The notes: generated by a model from the sequence alone, not told the origin. Positions 30,602 to 37,012 are shown, counted from the first letter of the stretch. The stretch is DNA of 64,000 bases from Kaistella solincola (GCF_000812875.1 NZ_JSYK01000002.1:434001-498000), one strand, 5' to 3'. Program-made: numbers and translations.

Positions 30602-31366
30602 TTAGGAATTTACCTCTGCTTTCAACCATTTCGAGCTCGAAAGATATTGCTGATCAGGATAATAAATAAAGAGACAGTTTTCGTTTTTTATCGTGTTGAT
30701 GATCGGCTGCGCCAATTCACGCGGCACCGCCGGGCAACCCCAACTTCTACCCAAACGTTTCTGGCTCTTAATAAAATCATCACTCACATAATCTGCGCCG
30801 TGCATTACAATTGCGCGCTGCAGCGCCGCATCATTGTAACCCGCGTCCATGCCGATGAGCTTCAGCGAATATCCGTTTGAACCATTATAAGAACCTTCGG
30901 TGATATAAAAACCCAAACTGCTTTGGTAAGAACTTTCAATATTCGAAAATTTCTGCGCAAATTCTTCACCGGTATTTTTTCCGTGTGCGACAAGTGAATT
31001 AAACAGAACTTTCTTTTCAGCAAGATCTATTACCCACAATCTTTTTTCGGTGGAAGAAAGTGAAAAATCGCAGATGGTTAAAAGATTGGAATTTTCGGGC
31101 ATTTTTCCGGCTTTTTTTAAGTTTTCAAAACCAAGAAAAGCTTTTTCAAAAACTTCGGGATTAAGTTTTTTCATATCGGAAAAAGAAATGCTGTTATAAA
31201 TTTCTGCCGCCTTTTCGGCCGAATTTTTTGCTTTTGACTTCAGCGGAATATTTGTGGTTTCAGCTTTAATAATATTTGCTGTGTGCTTTTCGCTTTTGCT
31301 TTTAATGGTGTAGAAAGAAGTGCTGAAAAACAGAACAGAAACTAAGATTAAAAGGAATTTTTGCAT
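30602..31366 (-). CDS. L,D-transpeptidase family protein (YkuD-like catalytic domain)
   Basis: The 254-residue exported protein has an N-terminal hydrophobic segment and a catalytic domain near 170-225. IVMHGADYVS gives the His and GRSWGCPAVP the catalytic Cys. Such enzymes make 3-3 cross-links in peptidoglycan or attach proteins to it. The SWGC motif matches the variant of the family named murein L,D-transpeptidase catalytic domain proteins. Convergent with the GLPGLI gene; own promoter. Confidence 0.82.
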   Translation of the reverse strand: MQKFLLILVSVLFFSTSFYTIKSKSEKHTANIIKAETTNIPLKSKAKNSAEKAAEIYNSISFSDMKKLNPEVFEKAFLGFENLKKAGKMPENSNLLTICDFSLSSTEKRLWVIDLAEKKVLFNSLVAHGKNTGEEFAQKFSNIESSYQSSLGFYITEGSYNGSNGYSLKLIGMDAGYNDAALQRAIVMHGADYVSDDFIKSQKRLGRSWGCPAVPRELAQPIINTIKNENCLFIYYPDQQYLSSSKWLKAEVNS

Positions 31367-31505: not shown

Positions 31506-31883
31506 ATGTTGAAAACTTTAAAAATACTTTTTATCGTCTTGGGTCTTGGAATTTTTATTCTGCCCAAACAAATGGTATTTGCACAAAGCCCCGTTGAACA
31601 TTGCGACAAAAAAATGAATGACGCCAAGAACTGCTGCGACACGAAAAAGTCCACCGACTGTCATTCGAAAACCACAAAAGATTCACCTAAAAAAGACGAC
31701 TGTAACCACGATTGCAACGACTGTAAATCGTGCACTGTTCAGTTTACCGTAAATTTCCTTTCGGCGGAATTCAATTCACCTTTTGAAAAGCATTTTTTTG
31801 CTTCAAAGGCAAATTTTGATTACCAAACGCTGCACTTTACTTCTGCTCTTCAAAACATTTGGCAACCGCCAAAAATTGGTTAA
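31506..31883 (+). CDS. Cys-rich secreted protein, candidate metal-binding component
   Basis: The 125-residue protein has a signal peptide (about 1-26, ending FAQ). Eight cysteines fall within residues 33-76, in EHC, NCC, TDC, DDC, HDC, NDC and KSC, interspersed with His, Asp and Lys. The C-terminus ends NIWQPPKIG. The EHC, CC and PP elements recall Bacteroidota proteins of the HYC_CC_PP type, but I am not sure of that assignment. It is the first gene of a cluster with an HMA-fused TonB-dependent receptor, so metal binding is likely and copper is the first guess, not shown by the sequence. Its stop codon lies inside the structured element 31879-31933. Confidence 0.7.
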   Translation: MLKTLKILFIVLGLGIFILPKQMVFAQSPVEHCDKKMNDAKNCCDTKKSTDCHSKTTKDSPKKDDCNHDCNDCKSCTVQFTVNFLSAEFNSPFEKHFFASKANFDYQTLHFTSALQNIWQPPKIG

Positions 31884-31933
31884 CATACCTCGTACAGCCG
31901 AAAGTTTGTACTTTCGGTAATTTCTATGTTAAC
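31879..31933 (+). promoter_or_regulatory. Structured intercistronic RNA, candidate switch
   Basis: An outer 9-bp stem GTTAACATA/TATGTTAAC (31879-31887 with 31925-31933) encloses a 7-bp hairpin CCGAAAG/CTTTCGG (31898-31904 with 31911-31917). A competing hairpin GTACA/TGTAC (31892-31896 with 31907-31911) cannot form together with the inner one. The structure begins on the upstream stop codon and ends 16 nt before the receptor ATG. No T tract follows, so it is not an ordinary terminator. Confidence 0.5.
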
Positions 31934-31949
31934 TAATTTATTTTAAAAA

Positions 31950-34613
31950 ATGAAAACTTTATTAAGAAGTCTCTTAGTATTTATATTCTTAATTTCCTCT
32001 TTTATTTCCGCTCAAACGCTTACAAAATCTACTTTTACCGTAAAAGGAGAATGCGGAATGTGTGAAGAAAGAATTGAAACCTCAGCCAAAAAATCCGGCG
32101 CTGAAACCGCTGTGTGGAACGCTGAAACCCAAAAACTTGAAGTAGAATTTGATCCGGCAAAAACATCGGCGGATTTAATTTTAAAAAATATCGCTGATGT
32201 GGGCCACGACAACGAAAAATACCGTGCTTCAGATGCAATTTATGACAAGTTACCAAGCTGCTGTCATTATGAACGAAGCCCAGATTTATTGTCAGCAACT
32301 ACAGAAACTGTAATTGCAGCACCCACTCAGGAATACTTTGTGCGTGGCAATTGCGATATGTGTAAAGCCAGAATTGAAACTGCAGCAAAAAGCGCCGGCG
32401 CCACAGATGCAAACTGGAGTGCAGAAACGCAAAAGGTTTCTCTGGAATTCGATCCTGCAAAAACGTCTGCTGAAGCTATTTTGAAAAAAATCGCTGATGT
32501 TGGGCACGATAATGAAAAGTTTTTAACCACCGGTACGGTTTATAAAAAGTTGCCTGGCTGTTGTCTTTATGACCGCGACGCAGAATTTGGTGTGCAGGGC
32601 GAAGGCGTGCATTCCGATGCGCCAAAACCTAAAAAAGATTTCAGCAACTTCGATGACCATTTTCAAAAATCCATCGACGAAGTTCGGCTTATAAAAACGG
32701 CTGATGCAACGGCTCTAAGCAAGAAGGAAACCGGATTAACCTTTAATATCGGAACAAAAGAATTGCTGAAAGCGGCATGTTGTAACCTTTCTGAAAGTTT
32801 TGAAACCAACGCCACTGTGGACGTTTCCTTCAGCAACGCAGTCACGGGAACAAAACAACTGAAAATGCTTGGTTTAGACCAAAAATACACCGCTTTAACT
32901 AAAGAACTTTTACCTTCTGTTCGCGGTTTAGCGGCGCCTTATGGTTTAAATTTGATTCCGGGACGCTGGATTGGCGGGATTCAACTGACCAAAGGTGGCA
33001 GCACCGTGGTGAACGGCTACGAAAGTATTACCGGCCAGATCAATACCGAGCTTTTAAAATTCAATGAAACTCCGGAAACTGCATTAAATGTTTTCGCTGA
33101 CGCGAACGGCCGCGTGGAAACCAACATCACTTCTACTACTCCTTTGAACGAAAAATGGAACCAAACAGTGTTGCTTCACGGCAACGCAACTTTAGGTGAA
33201 ATTGATTCTAATGACGATGGATTTCTGGATCAACCGACCGGGAACCAAATTAATGCTGCTTATTTGCTGAATTATAACGATTTGGAAAATTCGGGCTGGG
33301 GAACGCATTTCGGAATAAGTTTTGTGAAAGACGAGCGTTTCGGTGGACAAACTGCATTTGACAAAAAAATTGATCAGTCTCAGCAGAACGCTTATGGTGT
33401 GGGAATCGATCTTTCGCGCTTTGAAATCTGGAACAAAACCGGCTATATTTTTAAAGATAAACCCTACCAAAGTATCGGTTGGATGAACCAGTTCACCACG
33501 CACCTGCAGGACAGTTTTTTTGGAAACCGAAATTATTGGGGCAAACAGAACACTTTTTATTCAAATTTGGTTTTTGAAAGTATAATCGGCAACACCAATA
33601 ATAAATTTAAAACCGGCGCAAGTTTTCTGTATGACAATTACGACGAAGATTATTTAACGCAAAATTACCAAAGAACTGAAACGGTTCCCGGTTTATTTTT
33701 CGAGTACACGCTTTCAGGTTTGAAATATACTTTGGTTGCAGGTGTCCGAACAGATTTCCACAACTTAGCCGGAACTCAGTTTACACCGCGTTTGAACTTC
33801 AAATATGATCTTTCACCGAAAACCATTTTGAGACTTTCTGCTGGACGAGGTTTCCGTACAGCGAATGTTTTCGCGGAAAATCAGCAGTATTTCGCTTCAA
33901 ACCGTGAGATTGAAATCTTAGGAAATGGCGGAAAAATATATGATTTAGAGCCGGAAATTGCCTGGAATTACGGTGCAAGTCTTCAGCAGGAATTCAAATT
34001 ATTTAATCGTAAAGCAAGTTTAGTTGCTGATTTCTTCAGAACAGATTTTCAAAATCAGGTCCTTACGGATTTAGACGTTTCACCGCAGAAAATCGTGTTT
34101 TACAACTTAGACGGAAATTCGTTTGCAAACAGTTTCCAAACACAGGTTGATTTTTCACCAGCCAGAAATCTGGAAATGAGATTGGCGTATAAATATTATG
34201 ATGTTCAGGCTGATTTTAAAGGTGGAAGCAGAGAAATTCCATTCATGGCAAAAAACCGTGGATTCTTTAATGCTTCTTACTCCACAACTAAAAATGAAAA
34301 AGAAGGTTTCTGGAATTTTGACACCACTTTACAATTGGTGGGACAGCAAAAACTTCCGAACTTAAATTCAAACCCGGCAGAATATAGACTTCCGGAATAT
34401 TCGAAAAGCTACGCGACGCTAAATGCACAGATTTCGCGAAACTTCAACAAAAATTTCCGTGCTTATATTGGTGGTGAAAATTTAACAAGTACAATGCAAG
34501 CCAACCCGATTTTGGATGCTGAGAATCCGTTTGGAAATTATTTCGATGCCGGAATGGTGTACGCACCGATTATGCCTGCAAATGTTTACGTGGGTGTAGA
34601 TTTTAAATTTTAA
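31950..34613 (+). CDS. TonB-dependent receptor with two N-terminal heavy-metal (HMA) domains
   Basis: The 887-residue outer-membrane receptor has a signal peptide (1-21) and two HMA domains, with GECGMC (Cys35/38) and GNCDMC (Cys135/138). Each is followed by a di-cysteine segment, LPSCCHYER and LPGCCLYDR (Cys104/105, Cys204/205). A plug with the motif LLKAACCNLSESFETN and a large beta-barrel ending in Phe (VDFKF) follow. The usual carboxypeptidase-like domain before the plug is missing, its place taken by HMA domains. The two HMA units are offset by exactly 100 residues. The barrel imports a ligand driven by TonB. The HMA and CC motifs point to a soft metal such as copper, but this is inference. 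It lies between the Cys-rich protein gene and the twin-motif lipoprotein gene. Confidence 0.85.
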   Translation: MKTLLRSLLVFIFLISSFISAQTLTKSTFTVKGECGMCEERIETSAKKSGAETAVWNAETQKLEVEFDPAKTSADLILKNIADVGHDNEKYRASDAIYDKLPSCCHYERSPDLLSATTETVIAAPTQEYFVRGNCDMCKARIETAAKSAGATDANWSAETQKVSLEFDPAKTSAEAILKKIADVGHDNEKFLTTGTVYKKLPGCCLYDRDAEFGVQGEGVHSDAPKPKKDFSNFDDHFQKSIDEVRLIKTADATALSKKETGLTFNIGTKELLKAACCNLSESFETNATVDVSFSNAVTGTKQLKMLGLDQKYTALTKELLPSVRGLAAPYGLNLIPGRWIGGIQLTKGGSTVVNGYESITGQINTELLKFNETPETALNVFADANGRVETNITSTTPLNEKWNQTVLLHGNATLGEIDSNDDGFLDQPTGNQINAAYLLNYNDLENSGWGTHFGISFVKDERFGGQTAFDKKIDQSQQNAYGVGIDLSRFEIWNKTGYIFKDKPYQSIGWMNQFTTHLQDSFFGNRNYWGKQNTFYSNLVFESIIGNTNNKFKTGASFLYDNYDEDYLTQNYQRTETVPGLFFEYTLSGLKYTLVAGVRTDFHNLAGTQFTPRLNFKYDLSPKTILRLSAGRGFRTANVFAENQQYFASNREIEILGNGGKIYDLEPEIAWNYGASLQQEFKLFNRKASLVADFFRTDFQNQVLTDLDVSPQKIVFYNLDGNSFANSFQTQVDFSPARNLEMRLAYKYYDVQADFKGGSREIPFMAKNRGFFNASYSTTKNEKEGFWNFDTTLQLVGQQKLPNLNSNPAEYRLPEYSKSYATLNAQISRNFNKNFRAYIGGENLTSTMQANPILDAENPFGNYFDAGMVYAPIMPANVYVGVDFKF
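32019..32579 (+). repeat. 300-bp tandem duplication encoding the two HMA units
   Basis: Residues about 24-110 and 124-210 align without gaps at an offset of 100 residues (300 bp). The nucleotide sequences are clearly related, for example the stretch encoding EFDPAKTSA and IADVGHDNEK in both copies, but have drifted at synonymous sites. Confidence 0.85.
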
Positions 34614-34639
34614 TTAATACTTTTGATAAAACAGAAAAT

Positions 34640-35083
34640 ATGCGAAAAATACCGCTAATAATTGCAGGCGCTGCGCTTTTGTATTCCTGCGACAAAAATG
34701 CGCCGGCGGCGAAAAATATCGAGCCGCTGAACACGCCACAAAAAGATGCGATGGTCGTCGCTGACACTACATCTGCAAACACAACTTTAAGCGAAAATAC
34801 TGCTGCTACAGCACAGAAACCGACTTTAAATCCGGAACACGGGCAGCCGTATCACCGATGCGACATTCAGGTTGGTGCACCACTGGACAGTGCGCCGCAA
34901 AATGTACAGTCGCTACCGACGCCGGGCAGTATTGCACCTGGCTTTAATACCAGTCCGATTGCACCGGCAGTGTCATCTTCGGCAGCGCCCGTTCAGGTTA
35001 GCGGACCAAAACCGGCTTTCAATCCGGCTCATGGTGAACCGCACCACCGTTGTGATATTCAGGTTGGCGCACCTTTAATTTAA
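34640..35083 (+). CDS. Lipoprotein with two His/Cys motifs (NPxHGxPxHRCDIQVGAPL)
   Basis: The 147-residue protein starts MRKIPLIIAGAALLYSC, with the lipobox Cys17. Two near-identical 23-residue motifs are at 60-82 and 124-146: NPEHGQPYHRCDIQVGAPL and NPAHGEPHHRCDIQVGAPL. They are joined by a Ser/Pro/Ala linker. The conserved H-G-x-P-x-H-R-C cluster could bind a metal. It lies 26 nt after the receptor gene on the same strand, so is probably co-transcribed. I recall the motif in other Bacteroidota proteins of unknown function. It ends with a bidirectional terminator. Confidence 0.75.
   Translation: MRKIPLIIAGAALLYSCDKNAPAAKNIEPLNTPQKDAMVVADTTSANTTLSENTAATAQKPTLNPEHGQPYHRCDIQVGAPLDSAPQNVQSLPTPGSIAPGFNTSPIAPAVSSSAAPVQVSGPKPAFNPAHGEPHHRCDIQVGAPLI
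34817..35077 (+). repeat. Duplicated 69-bp unit within the lipoprotein gene
   Basis: Positions 34817-34885 and 35009-35077 encode the two HRCD motifs; 21 of the 23 encoded positions are identical or similar. Confidence 0.75.
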
Positions 35084-35103
35084 ACATTAAAAGCTAAAAA
35101 CAA

Positions 35104-35132
35104 AAAAATGCAGCAATAAGCTGCATTTTTTT
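35104..35132. terminator. Bidirectional terminator, metal cassette and msrB
   Basis: AAAAATGCAGC pairs perfectly with GCTGCATTTTT around AATAA. Confidence 0.85.
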
Positions 35133-35691
35133 AATTGTTATTTGCTGTTTTCGAGTCGGGAACAAAATCCAGACTTACGGAATTCATACAGAAACGTGTG
35201 CCTGTAGGTGGCGGACCGTCGTTAAAAACGTGTCCTAAATGAGAGTCGCAGCGTTTGCATAAAACTTCGGTTCTTTCCATGCCGTAGCTTGAATCTCTTT
35301 TATAGATGACGCCTTCTTTATCAGCTTCAAAAAAACTTGGCCAGCCACAGGTTGAGGAAAATTTAGAATCTGAGCGGAAAAGATGGTTTCCGCAAACAAC
35401 GCAGTAATATTCACCTAATTCGTCGAACTGGTTATATTTCCCGGTCCCGGGTCTTTCCGTTGCGGCTTCCCGAGCAACTGCGTAAACTTCCGGTGAAAGT
35501 ATTTTTTTCCATTCCGAGTTGGGAACATTCAGTTTGGTGCGGTCGGTGCGGGAATAATAAGGGTTTTCTTTTTGAGTGGTGGAATTTTCCATTGAAATTG
35601 AATTTTTATTCTGTTGAGAAATTTCGGGTTTTTGAACTTGCGAGCACATCTGTAACGACATACAGAAGGCAAAAAAAAGAAAGTATTTCAT
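35131..35691 (-). CDS. msrB: Peptide-methionine (R)-S-oxide reductase, lipoprotein form
   Basis: The 186-residue protein has a lipoprotein-type signal (FCMSLQMC, Cys16) before a full MsrB domain. The zinc cysteines are CVVC and CKRC. SSTCGWPSFF and HLGHVFNDGP are standard, and the catalytic Cys is in RFCMNSVSLDF. Start is ATG 35691, where the signal begins; in-frame codons further upstream would extend across the divergent gene's start. It repairs oxidised methionine in envelope proteins. Convergent with the metal cassette. Confidence 0.92.
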   Translation of the reverse strand: MKYFLFFAFCMSLQMCSQVQKPEISQQNKNSISMENSTTQKENPYYSRTDRTKLNVPNSEWKKILSPEVYAVAREAATERPGTGKYNQFDELGEYYCVVCGNHLFRSDSKFSSTCGWPSFFEADKEGVIYKRDSSYGMERTEVLCKRCDSHLGHVFNDGPPPTGTRFCMNSVSLDFVPDSKTANNN

Positions 35692-35754
35692 AGATTGATA
35701 AACTGATTTTTGTGTAAAATCGTATGAAGTAAAAATTGTAAAACTCAAATTTAG

Positions 35755-35762
35755 TACATTTG
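35755..35762 (+). promoter_or_regulatory. -7 element for the DUF445 gene
   Basis: TACATTTG ends only 5 nt before the ATG; a TTG is at 35736-35738. Confidence 0.45.
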
Positions 35763-35767
35763 AAACA

Positions 35768-37012
35768 ATGAACGATTTTGAAAAAAAAGCGCAACTGCGT
35801 AAGTACAAAATGTTTGCCACCGGGCTTTTCTTACTGATGGCGCTTATTTTCGTCACTACAACAATATTAGCAAAAGAAAATCCGGCGCACTGGATCGGTT
35901 ACCTCAAAGCATTTTCAGAAGCTGCGATGGTCGGCGCTCTGGCAGATTGGTTCGCGGTTACCGCACTTTTCAATTATCCTCTCGGGCTGAAAATTCCGCA
36001 CACCAATCTCATCGAAAACAGCAAAGAGCGCATTGGTGACAATTTGGGAAATTTCGTGGTTGATAATTTTCTTTCGCCACAAAATATCCGGCCTTACATC
36101 CAAAAAATTATGATTTCCCATTTTGTAGGCGAATGGCTTTCCGCTTCTCGAAATCAGGAAAAGCTGATTAAAGAAGTTTCGAACATTGTTCTGGATATTT
36201 TAAATAAACTGGACGACACCGAAGTTGTAAATTTTATTGAAAAGAAAGCCAAAGAAATGACCGACGATGTAAAAATCAACCAAATAATCGGCAACGGACT
36301 GGAATATATTTTAGATAAAAATGACCACCAACGCCTGATAACCAATCTTTCAAAACAAATTAAAGAATATGTTCTGAAAAATCAGCAAATGGTGAAAGAA
36401 CGGGTAAAAAGCGAAAGTTTTTTTCTGGTTCCGAGGTTTGTCGAAGATAATATTGCAGACAAAATCACCGTTGGTCTTTCGAAGTATTTTGAAGAGGTGG
36501 AACATGATGAAAACCACTCTTTACGGCACGAAATTTCTAGCAAATTGTACACTTTTTCAAACGAAGTAAAAACCGAAAACCAATGGGCTGAAGAATTTCG
36601 GAACATTAAAGATGATTTTCTTACATCCGAAAAAATCACGCAATATTCTGCCGATATCTGGAACTCCATTAAAAAATCGCTCAGCAAAGAATTGGAAGAC
36701 GAAAATTCTGCGCTGAAAAATTATGTTCAAAAAAACCTCACAGAACTGGCAAAAAATTTAAAAACCGACGAAAAGTTTCAGAATAAAATCGACCATTGGG
36801 TGCGCGTTACGGCGTATAAATACATTTTAAAAAACACGCATCAAGCCGGAAATCTCATCAGCTCCACAGTTGGTAACTGGCAGGGAAAAGAGTTGAGCGA
36901 AAAACTGGAACTTGAAGTAGGGAAAGATTTACAATTTATCCGAGTGAATGGAACAATTGTCGGTGGTTTGGTGGGCTTGATCATTTATACCGCGACGAAT
37001 TTTTTCCTCTAA
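35768..37012 (+). CDS. DUF445 family membrane protein
   Basis: The 414-residue protein has one N-terminal hydrophobic helix (16-36), the family motif AAMVGALADWFAVTALFNYPLG, long helical regions, and a C-terminal hydrophobic segment GTIVGGLVGLIIYTATNFFL. This fits the YjiN/DUF445 family, whose role is unknown. It is divergent from msrB with short spacing, and convergent with pyrD. Confidence 0.82.
   Translation: MNDFEKKAQLRKYKMFATGLFLLMALIFVTTTILAKENPAHWIGYLKAFSEAAMVGALADWFAVTALFNYPLGLKIPHTNLIENSKERIGDNLGNFVVDNFLSPQNIRPYIQKIMISHFVGEWLSASRNQEKLIKEVSNIVLDILNKLDDTEVVNFIEKKAKEMTDDVKINQIIGNGLEYILDKNDHQRLITNLSKQIKEYVLKNQQMVKERVKSESFFLVPRFVEDNIADKITVGLSKYFEEVEHDENHSLRHEISSKLYTFSNEVKTENQWAEEFRNIKDDFLTSEKITQYSADIWNSIKKSLSKELEDENSALKNYVQKNLTELAKNLKTDEKFQNKIDHWVRVTAYKYILKNTHQAGNLISSTVGNWQGKELSEKLELEVGKDLQFIRVNGTIVGGLVGLIIYTATNFFL

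Follow-up and report, generated by a model that had tools for sequence, protein, structure and literature searches.

To our knowledge, only a few copper-sensing nascent peptides, CruR and CutF, have been worked out by experiment. In Bordetella CruR, a CXXC motif (residues 90-93) and a RAPP motif (residues 139-142) are separated by 47 residues, a spacing that matters for regulation (PMC9426467). In silico work has already noted CutF-like proteins from Bacteroidota as well as TonB-like genes next to those for CutF-like proteins (PMC9973294), and copper-related RAPP/RGPP upstream open reading frames (uORFs) have been reported as lacking in this phylum (EMBO J 2025, PMC12992588). SecM works through a stem that hides the start of the next gene and is opened by the stalled ribosome (PMC10987492). 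Here we analyzed a three-gene operon in a 64,000-nucleotide stretch of the Kaistella solincola genome (GCF_000812875.1 NZ_JSYK01000002.1:434001-498000; hereafter the window), and we consider it likely that this operon imports copper under the control of a copper-sensing nascent peptide. Its genes are as follows.

31506-31883, + strand: gene 1, the uORF; 125 amino acids (aa), exported and Cys-rich, a candidate CruR/CutF-like copper-sensing nascent peptide
31950-34613, + strand: gene 2, the receptor; 887 aa, TonB-dependent, with two N-terminal (periplasmic) HMA domains, LPxCC tails and a AACCNLSESFETN plug motif
34640-35083, + strand: gene 3, the lipoprotein; 147 aa, two NPxHGxPxHRCD(I/L)xVGAPL units, a putative accessory protein

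The genes are separated by 66 nt (genes 1 and 2) and 26 nt (genes 2 and 3). This layout was present as described in the original prediction, which had been made from the DNA alone, and the motifs that it named were all found: a cluster of eight Cys, two HMA domains with CC motifs, and two HGxPxHRC units. Both the receptor and the lipoprotein are single-copy in the genome, and the only genomic occurrence of the WQPPK coding pattern is the end of gene 1. The three-gene arrangement was confirmed to be beyond chance and to recur across the genus and much of the family. Synteny of uORF and receptor was found at nearly every sampled receptor locus and in almost all sampled genera of the Weeksellaceae, the uORF lying either immediately 5' of the receptor or one gene further away, with a separate HMA gene in between.

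Three elements can be distinguished in the product of gene 1.

31506-31586, + strand: signal peptide, residues 1-27, ending in FAQ, called by inspection of the alignment
31713-31733, + strand: CNDCKSC, residues 70-76, candidate copper-binding CxxC motifs
31860-31880, + strand: WQPPKIG, C-terminal candidate arrest motif just before the stop, based on a 55-sequence alignment and an ORF-end control

In the alignment of 55 gene 1 homologs, the N-terminus has a basic start, a hydrophobic core and a conserved ILPKQ..FAQ, and residues C70, P121, P122 and K123 are invariant. The first and second CxxC of CNDCKSC lie 47 and 44 residues before the PP in the window protein, and the first distance is held at 46-48 residues in most relatives. 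The uORFs that precede receptors in the sampled Weeksellaceae encode exported, Cys-rich proteins of about 113-153 aa, almost all of which end in IWQPPK(I/L)x, with WNPPK or FQPPK in distant genera; at nearly every sampled receptor locus, (W/F)xPPK is placed 1-5 residues before the stop of a small Cys-rich ORF. For the ORF-end control, we used 888 ORFs from 80 relative loci and the window. Twenty-four of these end in WxPPK, all 24 of them belonging to the small Cys-rich uORF family, and only seven other ORFs carry PP within their last 15 residues.

The protein had been proposed to sequester metal, and one alternative follows that line: gene 1 would encode a conventional secreted copper-binding protein (metallothionein- or chaperone-like) that buffers metal for the receptor, and the RNA stem described below would reflect ordinary translational coupling. 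Its export signal and its eight Cys within about 44 residues (7 to 12 Cys in most relatives) fit such a role, and copper binding and regulation could coexist in one protein. However, the mature middle of the family is poorly conserved (mean column identity 31%) while its last residues, at most five from the stop, are near invariant, and a plain binder would predict neither a fixed CxxC-PP distance nor covarying pairing between the end codons and the start of the next gene. We therefore regard the alternative as quite unlikely, and the signal peptide, the fixed distance and the pairing with the receptor start as features of a regulatory nascent peptide.

Judged from its sequence, gene 1 is probably a leader ORF of the CruR/CutF type. 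It shares with CutF/CruR-like uORFs a length below 150 aa, an N-terminal export signal (by inspection), a CxxC/CxxxC about 45-47 residues before PP (47 in gene 1), a PP inside the last 15 residues (WQPPKIG-stop), and a same-strand metal-homeostasis gene no more than 1000 nt downstream (the receptor with its HMA domains, at 66 nt). Among the 55 relatives, ten gave weak matches to the CzcI profile (best E 5e-5) and two to the DUF2946 profile (PF11162; best E 0.003), links which suggest that the family belongs with the CutF-like class. Direct membership of gene 1 in DUF2946 was rejected, as the window protein has no match to this profile at the curated cut-off; it also has WQPPK instead of the DUF2946 RAPP C-terminus, and no match to the HYC_CC_PP profile (NF047658) at E up to 1.

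The end of the uORF is also part of an RNA element that spans the junction with the receptor gene.

31873-31887, + strand: 5' arm of the outer stem, comprising the last K-I-G codons, the stop codon and 4 nt beyond
31897-31918, + strand: inner hairpin GCCGAAAGT-TTGT-ACTTTCGGT, conserved and with compensatory changes
31925-31939, + strand: 3' arm of the outer stem, ending 10 nt before the receptor ATG and covering the translation-initiation region

The window segment folds at -31.4 kcal/mol (z -5.74), and the mean folding z over 28 loci is -3.46. Because RNAalifold recovered only the inner hairpin from the plain alignment, the outer stem was checked by per-sequence folding, arm swapping and pair counting. 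Cognate arms paired at -9.46 kcal/mol versus -6.05 kcal/mol for non-cognate arms (0 of 10000 permutations), 13 pairs showed two-sided change among 25 sequences, and sliding the arms by one to three columns lowered pairing from 83% to 33-56%. In the covariation control, 0 of 500 shuffles matched the real alignment on any of five measures; the aligned RNAs are related sequences and shuffle counts are not strict probabilities. A covariance model of the element found it in 74 of 148 family genomes and 15 of 33 genera; its strong matches fell on the junction of uORF and receptor. Since the model contains the conserved WQPP codons, these matches do not reflect structure alone. A search of Rfam gave no relevant match, only a sub-threshold sau-19 outside the element. 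If toeprint geometry is as usual, stalling at the PP would bring the ribosome approximately to the stop codon, and the outer stem would melt, in keeping with the logic of SecM and CutF (PMC10987492, PMC9973294).

It is also conceivable, if unlikely, that the uORF acts on transcription, through attenuation or Rho-dependent termination, rather than on receptor translation. CruR uses Rho-dependent termination (PMC9426467), and the 31897-31918 hairpin is terminator-like by score. However, only a weak T tract follows this hairpin, the gap, at 66 nt, is well below the 162 nt of cruR-bfrG, and the conserved outer stem pairs the uORF end with the region before the receptor ATG, which is the geometry of translational occlusion (SecM, CutF). 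Termination was rejected as the main role of the hairpin, which has no proper T tract and sits within the conserved larger stem.

A motif, ACAGCCnnA (31895-31903 in the window), was observed 10-13 nt 3' of the stop codon of the uORF at roughly half of 83 distinct W.PPK uORF loci, against a shuffled rate of 1.5%; it occurs before receptors and before HMA/DUF3347 genes (loci L034-L050, L109-L127). We do not claim occlusion for HMA/DUF3347-type uORF loci because structure there is modest (mean z -1.9), with no clear occluding stem.

We propose that gene 1 would be translated and exported co-translationally, and that its C-terminal IWQPPK would slow or arrest the ribosome a few codons before the stop. 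The held ribosome would cover the last codons and the stop, blocking their pairing with the region upstream of the receptor ATG; the stem would thus be prevented and the receptor start therefore opened. Copper could relieve the arrest by binding to the nascent-chain CxxC, which at that point would be some 47 residues away from the PP; the ribosome would then leave, the stem would reform and receptor synthesis would fall. This is the CruR-like sign of regulation, and the reverse, CutF-like sign is possible. The receptor would import a copper complex across the outer membrane and pass the copper to its own periplasmic HMA domains, and the HG.P.HRC lipoprotein could serve as an accessory envelope protein.

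The receptor is probably a copper importer, and our analysis lends support to the notion of an outer-membrane import unit for a metal, most likely copper, that has an HMA-fused TonB-dependent receptor at its centre. Gene 2 contains two HMA stretches (PF00403, E 3e-11), a TonB beta-barrel profile (PF00593, E 5e-24), the CC motifs LPSCCHYER and LPGCCLYDR, and a plug with an invariant AACCNLSESFETN; the plug residues KAACCNL and ESFETN are invariant in 44 receptor homologs, whether HMA domains are present or not. The AlphaFold model shows two HMA folds (beta-alpha-beta-beta-alpha-beta) with a predicted local distance difference test (pLDDT) score of about 80-89, so that profile, CxxC and fold agree on the HMA domains. 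The barrel was modelled at modest or lower confidence and matches TonB-dependent transporters in general by Foldseek (E about 1e-18), which together with the beta-barrel profile places gene 2 in this class. The receptor family is present in 50 of 139 sampled Bacteroidota genera. Epilithonimonas and some related genera encode one HMA domain on its own, as a secreted protein whose gene lies between the uORF and the gene for a receptor with a single HMA domain (L067, L068, L069, L089, L133, L134, L136).

The metal could instead be zinc, mercury or silver, or the receptor could take up another ligand: the HMA domains also match MerP and zinc ATPase domains, and the solved barrels closest to that of the receptor include those of enterobactin and B12 receptors, with OprC just one among many. 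We assign this a low probability, since the best HMA matches are to copper ATPase/CopZ domains, the sister uORFs are placed in copper islands, and the worked-out uORFs of the same plan sense copper (PMC9426467, PMC9973294). Homologs of the uORF were detected in 28 of 139 sampled Bacteroidota genera (E<=0.01). Outside the receptor context, the sister uORFs stand first in loci that encode secreted HMA/DUF3347 proteins, HMBD/HMA P-type ATPases, multicopper oxidases, AraC-type regulators and RND pumps.

In other Bacteroidota families, AACCNLSESFETN receptors are often preceded by HYC_CC_PP (NF047658) proteins (L220-L228, L085, L086, L100, L234), the uORFs there matching this profile. The stop region at these loci often pairs with the region before the receptor ATG (mean z -3.2, 12 loci).

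Several observations weigh against control of a copper receptor by nascent-peptide arrest as we propose it. The candidate arrest motif, WQPPK, differs from the RAPP/RGPP found in those arrest peptides that have been tested, and the window gene 1 protein has no meaningful Pfam or NCBIfam match. Some distant members of the family, for example those at relative loci L076 and L081-L083, have no clean CxxC, and the kinship of the aligned RNAs tempers the covariation result. Shine-Dalgarno pairing is seldom used by Bacteroidota, which bears on how strongly the stem could block initiation. The PP of the HYC_CC_PP relatives is some 14 codons away from the stop, and a stalled ribosome would miss the stem; because of this geometry the mechanism there must differ in detail, and it may not extend unchanged beyond IWQPPK-type uORFs. 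We see the case as evenly balanced for a broader, phylum-wide class of copper-sensing arrest peptides in Bacteroidota. It would comprise IWxPPK and HYC_CC_PP types, whose arrest motifs differ from RAPP, and would control copper receptors and copper islands, at receptors via an RNA stem hiding the translation start region.

The gene 3 protein has a lipobox-like LLYSC and the units HGQPYHRC and HGEPHHRC, and its closest named match is from Kaistella treverensis (99%). Members of its family carry a lipobox followed by two or three NPxHGxPxHRC(D/E)(I/L)xVGAPL units, and the family has no Pfam or NCBIfam match. Within the family Weeksellaceae, the receptor lies no more than 1.5 kb from the lipoprotein in 54 of the 64 genomes that bear one. 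The lipoprotein gene is 3' of the receptor in Kaistella and Epilithonimonas, and 5' of the uORF in Chryseobacterium and others. More than 500 lipoprotein relatives or loci occur across Bacteroidota, mostly with unrelated neighbours, which vary in Flavobacterium, Pedobacter, Chitinophagaceae and Prolixibacteraceae; among the best 80 relatives, 57 have neither such a receptor nor such a uORF in the surrounding 6 kb or so. An essential partnership was rejected, the lipoprotein being standalone in most other Bacteroidota, and this varied context therefore points to an accessory or passenger rather than a core part. Co-occurrence of the three families had been named as a test of the original prediction: it is clear for uORF and receptor, the lipoprotein follows them within the family (with linkage in Kaistella, Epilithonimonas and Chryseobacterium) but not beyond it, and its standing as a core partner is weakened.

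Downstream of gene 3 lies one further feature.

35102-35132, bidirectional, no strand assigned: strong terminator-like hairpin with a T tract, 3' of gene 3

The original prediction of a terminator after the last gene alone agrees with this hairpin and needs qualifying at 31897-31918, where a hairpin without a real T tract also follows gene 1. The downstream hairpin may be common to the operon and a convergent MsrB-like (methionine sulfoxide reductase B) gene (35131-35856, - strand; named by eye). On the other side, a YkuD-type L,D-transpeptidase gene (30602-31366, - strand) is divergent from the operon.

Bacterial copper acquisition is poorly understood, and this locus offers, in another phylum, a testable version of copper sensing by a nascent peptide, in which a new candidate arrest motif is combined with an RNA switch that covariation supports. 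It further suggests a class of receptor, probably for copper, that has HMA domains built in, and a possible function for HYC_CC_PP, a named but unexplained family. If the proposal is correct, metal-responsive nascent-peptide control would operate in a phylum reported to lack copper-related RAPP/RGPP uORFs (PMC12992588). In the literature searched, which included few subscription journals, we found no paper dealing with this type of receptor, with the stem or with IWQPPK; papers on Riemerella ZntR and others held nothing that could be tied to the receptor.

Among described systems, OprC is a TonB-dependent barrel like the receptor, with about 12% identity, no HMA domains and no specific relation shown, and the artificial arrest peptide FXXYXIWPPP (PMC11669330) resembles the window motif only in IW and PP. 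SecM-secA and the Sec-related uORFs of Bacteroidota (NAP-stop, NSP-stop; PMC10987492) likewise pair an exported leader with a C-terminal arrest motif, but they monitor protein export rather than metal and are unrelated in sequence. HYC_CC_PP proteins are also small, Cys-rich and exported, with PP near the C-terminus, and are encoded before AACCNLSESFETN receptors; unlike them, the window protein does not match the model, and their PP lies farther from the stop. CutF-CutO of Rhodobacter capsulatus (PMC9973294) has an exported copper-sensing nascent protein, a C-terminal proline motif and a stem-loop over the start of the next gene, although the CutF target is a copper-induced multicopper oxidase and that of the window a probable importer. 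CruR-CrtA(BfrG)-bp2921 of Bordetella pertussis (PMC9426467, PMC12914433) is similar in its three genes, in which a small exported protein with CxxC and a C-terminal PP precedes a TonB-dependent transporter. Compared by description, CrtA has no conserved Cys or Met and at most loci is followed by a PepSY_TM gene, whereas the window receptor has HMA domains and an invariant plug CC and is followed by a lipoprotein gene without a Pfam match. The window uORF has WQPPK rather than RAPP and no confident DUF2946 match, and a stem occluding the receptor start stands where cruR-bfrG has a longer gap and Rho termination; in both CruR and the window uORF, 47 residues separate the CxxC from the PP.

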